From Tubulanus polymorphus (lineage: Eukaryota > Nemertea > Palaeonemertea > Tubulaniformes > Tubulanidae): 64,000 bases of DNA. The notes beneath the pieces are model-generated. The model was given only the letters and a program-made list of their open reading frames with translations. It did no database searches and had not been told where the DNA came from. Made by a program: the position numbers and the translations under genes. The stretch is from NCBI RefSeq assembly GCF_964204645.1, contig NC_134025.1:24644001-24708000 (forward strand). The letters run 5' to 3'. Shown one piece after another: positions 33,917 through 40,347 of this stretch (its first letter is position 1; every line of letters begins with the position of its first letter).

Positions 33917-36900
33917 CTACACGACGCTACTAGATTTTTCGGTGTCGGACTTTTTCAAAAGTCTCACGTACATTTCGTTTTGGTGATTGGCCCAATCGCC
34001 GTTGGCTTTCGGTGAAGAATTCGCGCGAAGCGGGATCGAGTTAGTGGAAAGTTCCGTATGGAGCACGGTCGAGTTGCCGATCCGAGTTGATGACGTGCGC
34101 GAATCGAGCGAGTAGGGAGAAGCCGAACCGGGCCTGAAACGCCTCAGCTGTCGACAGATATTGTCTGTGAATGCCAAGTAAATCCACGGATTTGTACAGC
34201 TATTGAGGCTTGCCAATAACACCAGGATTGTCATCGTGTTGCCTAGAAATAACGACGAGAGATGATTAAAGTTAATTGTGTGATAGAAATTTGATATCTG
34301 AGAATACCGAACATTTATTATAACATCGACCATTAAAATTCTGAATGTATTAATTTATTAAGTACGTCTATTATACTTAAAGAATCTACTTTGTTTTGCG
34401 AGACATAATTGAGCGCAGCTGCATGGATTTTTTCAACGAATGCGGCGAATAAAGGAGAAGGCTGCAAGGTCGATACAACGGAGAATCTGCTGCAAGGATG
34501 GACTAATCTTTTCATTTCTTACAACGATGTAAAAAACGTTAGCATTAAAGTGGGGTACTATCTTGGGCGCATGCTTTAGACCATTTTGTCTTATCAATGG
34601 GTATTAATCAAAATGGCCGCAGTCAGGGCGAACTTCGGGTATCGTATGGTGGCTGATAAGGGCCATAGCGTAAAATTCCTGGTATGTAAATGAGGGCGCC
34701 AGAACGCCAGAACGCCAAAACGAAAAAAAACGTCCAATTTTCTCTAAAAGTTCGTTTTGGCGCGCCAAAACAAAGAAAATTCCGTTTTGGCGCCCCCGCC
34801 AAAACGAACTTTCATTTTGGCGCCCCCGCCAAAACGAACTTTCGTTTTGGCGCCCCCGCCAAAACAACGAAAAACGTCGAAATTTCTCTAAAAGTTCGTT
34901 TTGGCGCGCCAAAACGGAGAATATTCCGTTTTGGCGCCCCCGCCAAAACGAACTTTCATTTTGGCGCCCCCGCCAAACCGAACTTTCGTTTTGGCACCCC
35001 CGCCAAAACAACGAAAAACGTCGAAATTTCTCTGAAAGTTCGTTTTGGCGCGCCAAAACAAAGAAAAGTTCGTTTTGGCGCGGTTATTTCCGTTTTGGCG
35101 CCCACGCCAAAACAAGCATTCAACCACAGTAAAATTATTTTTCAAATTGGCGCGTTGATCTTGTGTGTAATTTGCATAAATTTGCATAAATGAAAATATT
35201 TTACGTATATATAGAATTATTTTACGTGGTTTAAAGTTCGTATTGGCGGGGGCGCCAAAACGAAAGTTCGTTTTGGCGGGGGCGCCAAAACGGAATATTC
35301 GTTGTTTTGGCGCGCCAAAACGAACTTTCAGAGAAAATTGGACGTTTTTCGTTGTTTTGGCGGGGGCGCCAAAACGAAAGTTCGTTTTGGCGGGGGCGCT
35401 AAAATGAAAGTTCGTTTTGGCGGGGGCGCCAAAACGGAATATTCTCCGTTTTGGCGCGCCAAAACGAACTTTTAGAGAAATTTCGACGTTTTTCGTTGTT
35501 TTGGCGGGGGCGCCAAAATGAAAGTTCGTTTTGGCGGGGGCGCCAAAACGGAATTTTCTTTGTTTTGGCGCGCCAAAACGAACTTTTAGAGAAAATTGGA
35601 CGTTATTCGTTGTTTTGGTGGGGGCGCCAAAACGAAAGTTCGTTTTGGCGGGGGCGCCAAAATGAAAGTTCGTTTTGGCGGGGGCGCCAAAACGGAATTT
35701 TCTTTGTTTTGGCGCGCCAAAACGAACTTTTAGAGAAAATTGGACGTTTTTTTTCGTTTTGGCGTTCTGGCGTTCTGGCGCCCTCATTTACATACCAGGA
35801 ATTTTACGCTATGGCCCTTATCAGCCACCATAGTATCGGGATTAGTCGACTATTTGCGAACTGAGTGAAACCGAACGTCGGTTAGTCGGAATTGTGGTCC
35901 GGAAATAGTCGACGACAGGATTGGGCACTCTGACCTTATTCCAAGATGGCCGACACTGTGAAATGCATTAAGACCGAACTATAGTGCGTTGACATATTAG
36001 TTCCGACCACTAGTTGACAAATTAAGAAAACGCAAGTTCGCCTAGCTAGTGGGCCTGATCAGAAGATATCAGCGTTGATAACTTCATAAGTTGGTTAATT
36101 GTAACAAACTGAAGACGATACAAAGACAATATGAGTACAAGAAATATTGACGTATTGTTATTCCATTATTTGAAATTAGCTGAAAATCTATCAAAAGAAA
36201 GGTCAAGATCAATAAGCCAATCAGTAAGCTCAGATATGTCGGTCATGAGTAGCCAGCAGTTGAACGGTACGATAAGCAAAAAGGCGAAAAGCGCAGGAAA
36301 AAATTGAAACACAGATTAAGAGATGAAGTGCGTTGGTTAGGTCAAAAAGTAACATTCATGAAAAAAAGTTATTCATATCGTCATTTCAATACGACTTGCT
36401 CCGAAAATGATATAGACTTTTAATGGATGAACCTACGTTCAAACTATGTTGCATCATCAAATGGTACTATTGATGTTCGAAATTGTTTCCTATCAATCGT
36501 TGTTCTGTTTTGATTTGTCCATTTGCTAAACGCCAGGTAAAGAACAATTTTATGCTAAAAAGTGCCTGAACGAATTTCTTCGCAGTTACCGAATGTCTTT
36601 TCAGTAGGCATATATACCTTGTCATCGAATCAAAACGAATTTTTCTAAGAAATATAAAAATCGGGTTTGCTGTTGCAAAGTAAGTCGCATTGAAATGCCG
36701 GTGGAAATGAGTTGGGTTAGTTAGTTGCAGGGAGGGAAACACTGAATTAATTTACGAAAGATCACGAATACAGGCTCTTGTGTAGAGAAGGGGAGCTGTC
36801 AGATGCAGTAGAGAAAGATAACGCTTAAGCATGCGTTTGGCAATTAAATGTTCGCTCAAGCCACAGGAGGATGTCAAACGGCATTATTCGCAACTGGATA

Positions 36901-39900
36901 CAGAATACCACTTTCATTTTTAACCCTTCTCGAACGTAAACTTATTGAACCCTTCTCGAGCGTAAATTTATGGCCAGACGTTTCATAAAACCAGAGGTAT
37001 GATATAGAGTCTTCGAGGTGAATGTCTGGCGTTGTCACATTGACAGAAATCGGTCCAATACATAAACTATTGGTAAAGGTTGGGAAATAAGCAAGCATGA
37101 ACTTTCTTCACGATCATGATCAGTATGAACCAAGTATATGGCTATCATTATTTTCTTTGGATATAAGCCGAACCGATCATAGGAAGCGCAAGAGGTTTTC
37201 CATGATCAACCGGAATGATGAACCCCTTTTCGAGTGGATCTAACGGACGGTACGGCGGGTTAACGCAGAAAATTAATTCCGATTTAAATAGCTAATGATG
37301 GCCACGTGGTAATCAGTTGTCGCTAGAATAATGCCGCATTTGCATCGGGGAATTGGTTTTTCAGGCCGGTTTTAAGAAAGGGAACTATACCTGCAATTAT
37401 TGATAGCGTTTGCACTTATGATTGAAGAGTTATGCCGATATTTGGGCGGACGCTGGAGGCAGAGCGTGTCGGCGTATACCATATATATCCAGGGATTCGT
37501 ACAGCTATTGAGGCTCGCCAGAAGCATGACAATTGCCATGCCCGGCTCTGCAGGGAGTCGGAAAGAAAGAGAACGACATAAGACAACGATTATACCACAA
37601 TGCGTTATCAATAAATCAAACCACCAAAGATCATTTTCGCATTGCGCGCATATACACAAGCAAATTAACCCACTAAAAAACCGCACAAAGATCAGTAGAC
37701 ATACGGTATTATTCACAATATTCAAAAGAATTTAAGAGACAATGCTTAATGAGCTGGTTGAATTCTTCAAAATATATATCTTAATCTGTGTTGCAGTGGC
37801 TCTTATATTGCGTTATATTACGTTTTGCGTTGTAAATAAGATTAATAATTTAGTTTACACATATGTCTAAATTTTCTTGATTGGGTTTTACGGAGTTAAA
37901 TCATGCGATTGACTACCGGGACATTTACACAGTTAGATATTCCTTTGCAAATAGCACTCTGGAAAGAGATATTTGATTGGAAAGAATAGAAAAAAGATCT
38001 AGGGCAAAAATGAAAAGCGGTTCATTTGTGCTGCGCATTTATCAAATATCTAAATTTGTGTAAAGTATTCATGTATTCGTGGTGATGCCATTCATGCGTA
38101 GGAATACTTAAAAAATCACATAGAAATTATTCAAAAAGAAAGAAAATAAGGAAAAGATAAATCTATTGGCCACGCTGTAACATAATTTTCGATATAAAAA
38201 TGAGTCTTGGAAGTTGTAAATGAGCGCTAAGTTGTAGATAGTATAAGTTGAATTATGGGAACATTTGCAATGAATTTGAAATGAATTCTTATCGATTTGA
38301 AGTGGCATTTATCAAAATTGAATATCATGGATTTTTCTATTTGTTCTGCTCAGCTGAAATGAAATCTAGCCGACATAGTCTTTAGAATCTAAACGTTGAT
38401 AACGTTTAGATTTACGGAACCTATTTTGAGAAGATCATTTGTATATGTATCAGTCTCACAAACCATCTTTTAATCCAGTTTATACAAGCATTCTTTAGTC
38501 AAACCACGGGAGTGTGTACTTAATGCCGTTAACGGTCCACGAGGACATCTTAATTCAAACCAAAGAATCTAATTTCCGTTTCTTATTGAATTAGAATAAA
38601 ACCAAACAATCCGACGTGAATACAAATTCAGTTCCGTCAGATTTGAGTAAACGGTTTCATTGAATTTATGCAAATCGGATCAGTCTGGAAACGTATGGGC
38701 CCACAATGGCAAATCACTTGATATTCGATGAAGTCAACCACCTCATTCGTCAACAGTACGAATACGTTCGATTACGTTAGTATTCGAAATAATTCAACGG
38801 TAGTCCTGGATAAATGTCAACGAAGGGATTTGTCCGATGGGATATGATACTACGAGAGCAAAATTTTCAATAGTTTCTATGACATATTTTCTAACTAGAA
38901 CACAAGCAAGACATATCTTCGTATTCTATAGGACTGACCTAATGTTCTGCACCTTTCTAATAATAAATATCTACAGCCGGATAATGAAAAATATTAAGAG
39001 CCAATTTTGCCGGGGGACATGACTTCCGTGAACGTTAATTAATTAGTAAAGACATTGATGACATTTCCACACAGTGCGGTACGCGTGTATTATTAATGAG
39101 AAACCGATGCGTTTTATCGCAAAAGTTTCGGATCATGAAGAAAATAGTCAGGATAATAAAGAAGATGACGTGCACCATGTTTTATTTACTAAGTTCGGAT
39201 AGATTTTTGAGAAAAAATTATGCTCATAAATATTTTTGAAAGATAACCTATTAGGAATATGATATATGTTTACACTAGCCATTTCGAGAGGTGGACTGTC
39301 TGGAATTCTGGACTGTTCTGTTTGTGGCGATAGACGAGTTTTTGGTATGATGCAAAACTTACCGGTAAATGGGGCATTTTCATCCCACGCCGCCCAAAGC
39401 TGGCTGATGAAAAATGGACCCCAACAGACGAGGAAACAAATAATGACAGTCAATGTCAACTTGACAGTCTTGACCTTAGCATTCGACATGCTTCTAGAAT
39501 GTGCTCTCGGATTAGAGGCGTCGTTGCGTCGTCTAAGGAGTCTTTCCTCGCACTGGCCGCTGTAACTACGGGACATCTGCGACTGTATCGAAACCGGTGT
39601 CGGTGGCACGACTTCACGTTTGCCCATGCTATTCCACACAATTAAACAAATTCGTCCGTACGTGAACACTAATATGATAAATGGTATAAAATACACGGCA
39701 AACGAAAACGACGTTATGTACAAAGGAATTGTCCACTCGGGATCGAAATGCGCCCAACAGTCGTAGACACCGTTGCCGACATCCGTAAGGCTGAAAATAA
39801 AGACTTGTGGTAACGAAAACAGCAACGCCAAACCCCAGGCGATACCGATCATAATCGTGACCATGAGGTTGGTACGGAAACTTGTCCACGTGTGAGTTGT

Positions 39901-40347
39901 AAGTGGATAACAGATGGCCAAATAGCGATCGATGGCAGTCATCACCAATACGTAAGATGAAGCGTAGATGGCAACCAGTTGTACGTACTTGACAAATTTA
40001 CAAAACGCGTTATTGCCCTGAAACCTGTAGGTGATATCCCAACACATTTGCGGGAGTACGTTGAAGAACGCGACGAATAAATCGGCGAAACTCAGGTGGG
40101 CAATAAACAAATGCATTCGGCTGAATTTCTTTTTTCTCAAAAACAGCACGATCAACACGATACTGTTTCCCACAACGGCCAGGAAAAAGATGACCGCCTG
40201 CACAGCGATTTCTAAATTCGCCAGAAACTGCGATCGTGGGATCGGGTCTGTGCCGTTGGCACTGTTGTTCGTGTATTCCGTAGTTGATCTGAAAATGCCA
40301 GGTGCAGACGTATGCTGTTCCGGTAACCTTGCGCTAGTGTCAGTCAT
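33917..40347 (-). CDS. Vasopressin/oxytocin-type (conopressin-like) G protein-coupled receptor, canonical form
   Basis: Two coding exons, 39363-40347 and 33917-34242, join at phase 1 to 436 codons plus stop. The N-terminal domain has NNS and NGT glycosylation sequons. TM1 to TM6 lie in the first exon, with VP/OT-receptor signatures: GNSIVL (TM1), SRMHLFIAHLSFADL and VLPQMCWDITYRF (TM2-ECL1), DRYLAICYPL (TM3), DCWAHF (ECL2 cysteine), and TVIICFLVCWGPFFISQLWA (TM6). The last exon supplies TM7 (LLASLNSCTNPWIY), helix 8 and a Ser-rich tail. The exon break between TM6 and TM7 is a known feature of this receptor family. The receptor should bind a vasopressin/oxytocin-like nonapeptide and couple through Gq at the plasma membrane; ligand and coupling are inferred. 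The 5.1-kb intron contains a second TM7 exon and a palindromic transposable element. Confidence 0.95.
34645..35832. mobile_element. 1.2-kb palindromic foldback element with GC-rich tandem palindromes
   Basis: The outer ends TATGGTGGCTGATAAGGGCC are perfectly inverted, and the first 150 bp or more of the two arms (from 34645 and from 35832) appear identical. The 6-bp word GTATCG flanks both ends (34639-34644 and 35833-35838), a probable target duplication. Inside, each arm is a tandem series of about 30-bp units built on TTTTGGCGGGGGCGCCAAAA, alternating with TTTTGGCGCGCCAAAACGAA, so it is palindromic at two scales. Unit length near a multiple of three leaves long open frames on both strands (RFGAPAKTNF-type repeats) with no coding meaning. 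It lies in the GPCR intron. No transposase is present. Confidence 0.9.
36922..36973. repeat. 26-bp tandem duplication in the GPCR intron
   Basis: Two 26-bp units starting AACCCTTCTCGA (36922-36947 and 36948-36973) differ at a few positions. It is a minor local duplication. Confidence 0.8.
37372..37547 (-). CDS. Alternative terminal exon of the VP/OT-type receptor (second TM7 and short tail)
   Basis: A second acceptor (CTCCCTGCAG, exon from 37547) opens at the same phase 1 as the canonical last exon. Joined to the first exon it gives EPGMAIVMLLASLNSCTNPW, then IYMVYADTLCLQRPPKYRHN and a stop at 37372, a 386-aa receptor with a short tail. It keeps the NPWIY motif but differs in the start of TM7, in helix 8 and in the tail. 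A donor-like GTATAG after TGCAG (exon edge 37391) could splice on to the canonical last exon, but in a shifted frame that stops after about 14 codons. It is therefore a mutually exclusive last exon or an exonic relic; selection for the TM7 protein sequence argues that it is or was functional. Confidence 0.8.

Follow-up and report, generated by a model that had tools for sequence, protein, structure and literature searches.

Two homologous TM7 exons behind one TM1-TM6 exon in a vasopressin/oxytocin-type receptor gene of Tubulanus polymorphus, one of them a candidate alternative last exon

The gene described here lies on the minus strand of the window, the whole 64,000-nt stretch of Tubulanus polymorphus DNA that was analysed. 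Its first exon (39363..40347) carries the start codon and TM1-TM6 of a vasopressin/oxytocin (VP/OT)-type receptor and ends in a phase-1 donor, ACCG/GTAAGT (slashes mark splice junctions). When the gene was re-derived by script, exon 1 ran from the ATG at 40347 to a last base at 39363 (985 nt, phase 1); because an in-frame TAG stands two codons upstream, this ATG is the first one usable in frame. Two downstream exons on the same strand can each complete the receptor. Exon B (37372..37547) starts at the acceptor CTGCAG/AG at 37547 and would encode an alternative TM7, the beginning of helix 8, and a short tail running to an in-frame stop codon that ends at 37372, giving a protein of 386 aa. Exon A (33917..34242) starts at the acceptor TTCTAG/GC at 34242 and encodes TM7, an amphipathic helix 8, and a long Ser/Thr-rich tail ending in SSVV, with a stop codon that ends at 33917 and a protein of 436 aa. 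An earlier note on this DNA had placed the end of exon 1 at phase 1 after WDENAPFT and had both acceptors, 34242 and 37547, resume at phase 1; the script reproduced these junctions to the base, together with both predicted protein lengths. Both second exons contain the shared TM7 core LLASLNSCTNPWIY. The codon split by the intron becomes Gly with exon A and Glu with exon B, and the residues upstream of the core read GNTMTILV-LLASLNSCTNPWIY in A and EPGMAIVM-LLASLNSCTNPWIY in B. The outer end of TM7 would therefore differ between the isoforms, a point absent from the earlier note, and with these differences, ligand contacts there could differ as well.

Comparison of exon 1 with PDB sequences by phmmer gave matches to the V1a receptor (E 5.6e-68) and to OT and V2 receptors (down to 2.8e-52), the next group being the GnRH receptor at 1.2e-22; exon 1 also carries a 7tm_1 domain. 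VP/OT-type receptors are recognised by two motifs, xPQx2Wx5-6F where TM2 ends and CxNPW in TM7 (PMC5153645). The first is present in exon 1 as LPQMCWDITYRF and the second as CTNPW in both exon A and exon B. Judged by the PDB similarity and by both family motifs, the gene is a VP/OT-type receptor. A second receptor of this type, 46% identical and with a long C-tail, lies on the same contig (C1:20662289-20666158); it contains CCNPW, lacks the PQ..W motif of the TM2 end, and has one TM7 exon only, behind the same phase-1 intron. An intron between TM6 and TM7 had been named beforehand as a trait of VP/OT receptors, and in agreement with this a phase-1 intron is present both here and at the corresponding position of the paralog; the intron position of V1AR is described as the most conserved of its group (PMC3316597). 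Two receptors each have been reported for Aplysia and Platynereis (PMC10067623). The genome also contains a VP/OT-type precursor (C2:27609988), in which a signal-peptide-like stretch is followed by CFVRNCPPG-GKR and then by neurophysin (match E 1.4e-16). The peptide of this animal is identical to that of a marine worm, the annelid Platynereis, for which CFVRNCPPG is given (PMC7181382), a match that would fit an annelid or another lophotrochozoan. A second neurophysin-like exon lies at C2:16103728; the stretch read there showed no nonapeptide.

Within exon B, homology to exon A covers 37452..37539 on the minus strand, the remainder of B having no counterpart. Over these 88 nt the two exons show 73% DNA identity without a gap, and each has a phase-1 acceptor that fits the same partner exon. 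With exon B as query, the 268-Mb genome yielded exon B itself, exon A (E 4.4e-8), the TM7 exon of the paralog (E 4.5e-5), and nothing else. Against the PDB, exon B alone matched the human oxytocin receptor at 2.4e-6 and V2 at 1.5e-5 (range 2.4e-6 to 5e-5), with one oxytocin receptor construct weaker at E 3.4e-4. These genome and PDB matches, together with the acceptor ranks given below, ruled out that exon B is a chance match. Junctions, frame, PDB matches, and strong acceptors all agree with the earlier claim of a single VP/OT-type receptor gene having two frame-compatible TM7 exons. Exon B might instead not belong to this gene and be the remnant of a second tandem receptor gene that lost its TM1-TM6 exon, and tandem receptor pairs do exist elsewhere in the genome (C2:3352274-3357749). 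However, tblastn with exon 1 found no TM1-TM6 trace between 39362 and 33917, and exon B keeps both a phase compatible with exon 1 and a strong acceptor; we consider such an origin very improbable.

The 33 alignable codons of TM7 and early helix 8 were used to compare A with B. Synonymous differences occupied 15.3 of 21.7 sites (pS 0.71; JC dS about 2.2, a poorly bounded value near saturation) and nonsynonymous differences 18.7 of 77.3 sites (dN 0.29); by codon position the changes numbered 10, 8, and 16, with neither stops nor gaps. No A-B homology was found in the flanks beyond the exon, as expected of an old duplication, and the near-saturated synonymous sites together with flanks lacking homology ruled out a young duplicate. 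We then simulated divergence in 2000 runs per setting and counted the runs in which identical residues and third-position changes stood at the observed level and no stop arose. With A constrained and B free, such runs made up 0.8% or less at every divergence tried; with both copies constrained, they made up 28-67% where d was at least 1. These results indicated that the TM7 of exon B worked as coding sequence during most of its existence, and they ruled out neutral decay of B since the duplication. Past coding constraint is what the sequences record for both TM7 copies; the present-day use of B is a separate question. A dN/dS check on exon B had been proposed in the earlier note; in the A-B comparison the TM7 part proved to be constrained, and by codon usage the tail showed no coding signal.

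Because a pair of sequences cannot tell lasting constraint from constraint that has recently ceased, the main rival explanation is that exon B is a relic, a long-working alternative exon that recently lost its tail or its expression and is now unused. Past constraint fits such a recent death equally well, and the paralog receptor has no counterpart of the duplicate. The TM7 residues speak against it. A and B differ at 9 of 26 TM7 residues, and with human OTR, human V2R, and the paralog as outgroups for polarity, the outgroup residue was kept at these 9 sites by B alone in 2, by A alone in 4, by both in 2, and by neither in 1, so that derived residues show no clear excess in B (2 confined to A, 4 to B). 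Over TM7, B is identical to human OTR at 18/26 residues and A at 16/26. These counts give no clear sign that B is the copy in decay. One derived change in exon B, Phe to Tyr, falls directly after NPWIY. Exon B has an open reading frame, with NPWIY and the TM7 core both intact, and its acceptor remains the best in the region.

Splice-site strength was scored with a generic model whose weights came from general knowledge and which was not trained on the Tubulanus polymorphus genome. By this model the exon-1 donor (7.35 bits) ranks 5/3679 among GTs on the minus strand of the window, and acceptors B and A rank 3/3182 and 12/3182 among AGs on that strand; the same two acceptors are the top two AGs within 39360-34000, the 5.4 kb that follow exon 1. 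The sole donor of note in exon B is a possible weak one at its end, CAG/GTATAG at 37390..37391 on the minus strand (1.19 bits, rank 186/3679). The lack of a strong donor there, 1.19 bits as against 7.35 bits for exon 1, favours B as a last exon. Polyadenylation signals say nothing on this matter, since neither exon has a canonical one close by: no AATAAA was found within 3 kb past the B stop, where ATTAAA occurs at 947 nt and CATAAA at 399 nt, and exon A is also without a nearby AATAAA, having GATAAA at 115 nt. The weak donor does allow a further explanation, in which exon B is an internal cassette joined from 39363 to 37547 and then from 37390 to exon A in a shifted frame. Its product is predictable, with a stop 15 residues on (NNC-RQHDDNPGVIGKPQ), and this third form would be a short-tail receptor or would reduce the yield of the long receptor; such a cassette also accounts for A and B not having to be mutually exclusive. 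The weakness of the donor argues against it, and the new stop would lie in the last exon, which would not make the transcript an obvious target of nonsense-mediated decay. On balance we judge the cassette to be improbable. An extra tail exon lying between B and A was rejected, because the best AGs there, read by eye in the phase of the weak donor, hit stops within a dozen codons.

Past about codon 33, after the first turn of helix 8, exon B has no counterpart in A, and no homolog of this part of B was found in the 268-Mb genome. In codon usage the TM7 part of B scored above every open intron stretch used as a null, and 42% of such stretches scored at least as high as the B tail, the GC of which goes down to 38%. 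The tail is the weakest part of the claim made for exon B, since its codon usage resembles that of non-coding sequence. It may have arisen as read-through into the former intron up to the first stop, and a sequence of that origin could still work as a tail. Two prolines stand in exon B where helix 8 should run, and the helix-8 moment at the same position was 0.47 in A, 0.03-0.15 in B, and 0.26 in the paralog. Form A has 22 Ser/Thr in its 86-residue tail and form B 7 in 36 residues; the arrestin phospho-code pattern matched six times in form A and not at all in form B; and form A ends in an SVV that would suit a class I PDZ ligand, with no PDZ motif in form B. That the two forms would differ in helix 8 and tail, as had been proposed, holds for the predicted proteins, which diverge in amphipathicity, Ser/Thr content, phospho-motifs, and the C-terminal PDZ-type motif. 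The non-coding look of the B tail and the break of helix 8 by Pro-Pro both favour the relic explanation. Weighing them with the intact frame, core, and acceptor, we regard a relic as unlikely.

We hold it somewhat probable, from the sequence features above, that an ancient tandem duplication of the TM7 exon produced the two copies and that exon B serves as an alternative last exon encoding a short tail. Under this duplication model, the phase-1 donor of exon 1, after TM6, would join either TM7 copy, and the last exon would be chosen by competition between acceptor B, which is near and strong, and acceptor A, which is distant and good. With exon A the product would be an ordinary long receptor whose helix 8 is amphipathic and whose Ser/Thr-rich tail ends in a C-terminal S-V-V; with exon B it would be a seven-TM receptor in which TM7 is a variant, helix 8 is reduced or absent, and the tail is short with few phosphorylation sites. 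The short form would then desensitise and traffic differently, or stay retained and dampen the long form. Expression of exon B, its role as last exon, and all of these functional consequences are inferred, and the choice of last exon could act as a switch of signalling or desensitisation. More tentatively, and with a fair measure of doubt, we suggest that the gene switches between two complete seven-TM receptors by means of homologous ancient TM7 exons, with the outer end of TM7, helix 8, the arrestin code, and the PDZ motif changing together, so that one receptor would desensitise and the other would persist or exert a dampening effect.

Throughout the animals, VP/OT receptors take part in the control of reproduction, water balance, and social behaviour, and how long they signal depends in part on the tail. 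Alternative tails made by splicing are common among GPCRs, and prostanoid receptors may have TM7 variants. If this gene makes two receptors with different tails, as it could, its two ancient homologous TM7/tail exons would amount to a natural experiment on what these parts (TM7, helix 8, and the tail) do in an otherwise unchanged receptor.

Known systems resemble this arrangement in part. The Aplysia receptors apTKRPR-A and -B arise from one gene whose splicing gives two C-termini, and they differ in tail length and in phosphorylation-dependent desensitisation (PMC11365428). They too are lophotrochozoan neuropeptide receptors, with two C-termini as predicted here, but they vary only in the intracellular C-terminus, whereas here a homologous duplicate exon replaces TM7 too; by likeness to these tachykinin receptors, form B would be expected to desensitise less. 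In the human V2b splice variant the protein is altered from TM7 on, and the short form is retained in the ER and acts as a dominant negative (Gonzalez et al. 2011, as cited in PMC3477067). This too is a VP receptor splice form changed from TM7 onward, and it already shows that TM7-altering splicing matters in a VP receptor; V2b is described there as a truncated six-TM protein, whereas the alternative exon here has its own TM7 with NPWIY intact (PMC3477067). By likeness to V2b, form B might be retained and dampen form A. The ant inotocin receptor, also an invertebrate receptor of the VP/OT type, has many splice forms, 2/10 of which encode all seven TMs, but no duplicated TM7 exon is described in the sections consulted (PMC8244912). 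NPSR, of a related receptor group, has several splice isoforms, two of which reach the membrane as functional receptors; it differs in having 9 coding exons as against 2-3 in VP/OT receptors, and the sections consulted report no TM7 exon duplicate (PMC3316597). Human tandem duplicated exon substitutions are homologous, mutually exclusive, and mostly ancient (PMC9741552). They resemble the present exons in being homologous and in tandem, but they swap within isoforms that are otherwise identical (PMC9741552), whereas here homology covers only about 33 codons and the exons would be terminal, their ends being unlike. Our literature search, which was of incomplete coverage, found C-tail isoforms and V2b and did not find a duplicated TM7 exon in a VP/OT receptor. 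Tandem homologous exons and tail splicing being already known, the new element would be a complete second TM7 kept under selection in a VP/OT receptor.

The intron between B and A contains a foldback repeat (34645..35832) that is not part of the receptor. It is 1188 bp long, with 333-nt arms that are 98% complementary and with GGCGCC-rich units of about 30 and 144 nt, and it is flanked by a 6-bp target duplication, CGATAC. The genome holds 233 matching pieces, many of them overlapping or self-matches. The repeat was rejected as the source of exon B because it is an independent insertion, bordered by a target duplication of its own and present in many copies across the genome; if transcribed, it would fold into a very long hairpin within the B-A intron. 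Elsewhere in the genome, copies of this repeat form oppositely oriented pairs with a spacing of about 9-10 kb (C1:4406522-4416409, C7:10229608-10238772, C10:11515074-11524814, and C8:3172517-3182175), as if the paired copies were the edges of a larger mobile element, of which the copy in the window would be a short derivative. The tandem pair at C2:3352274-3357749 consists of two class A receptor genes, in each of which an intron precedes a separate TM7 exon. A BTB/POZ domain exon (E 1.4e-13) at 1364-1867 on the minus strand of the window is part of a neighbouring gene.
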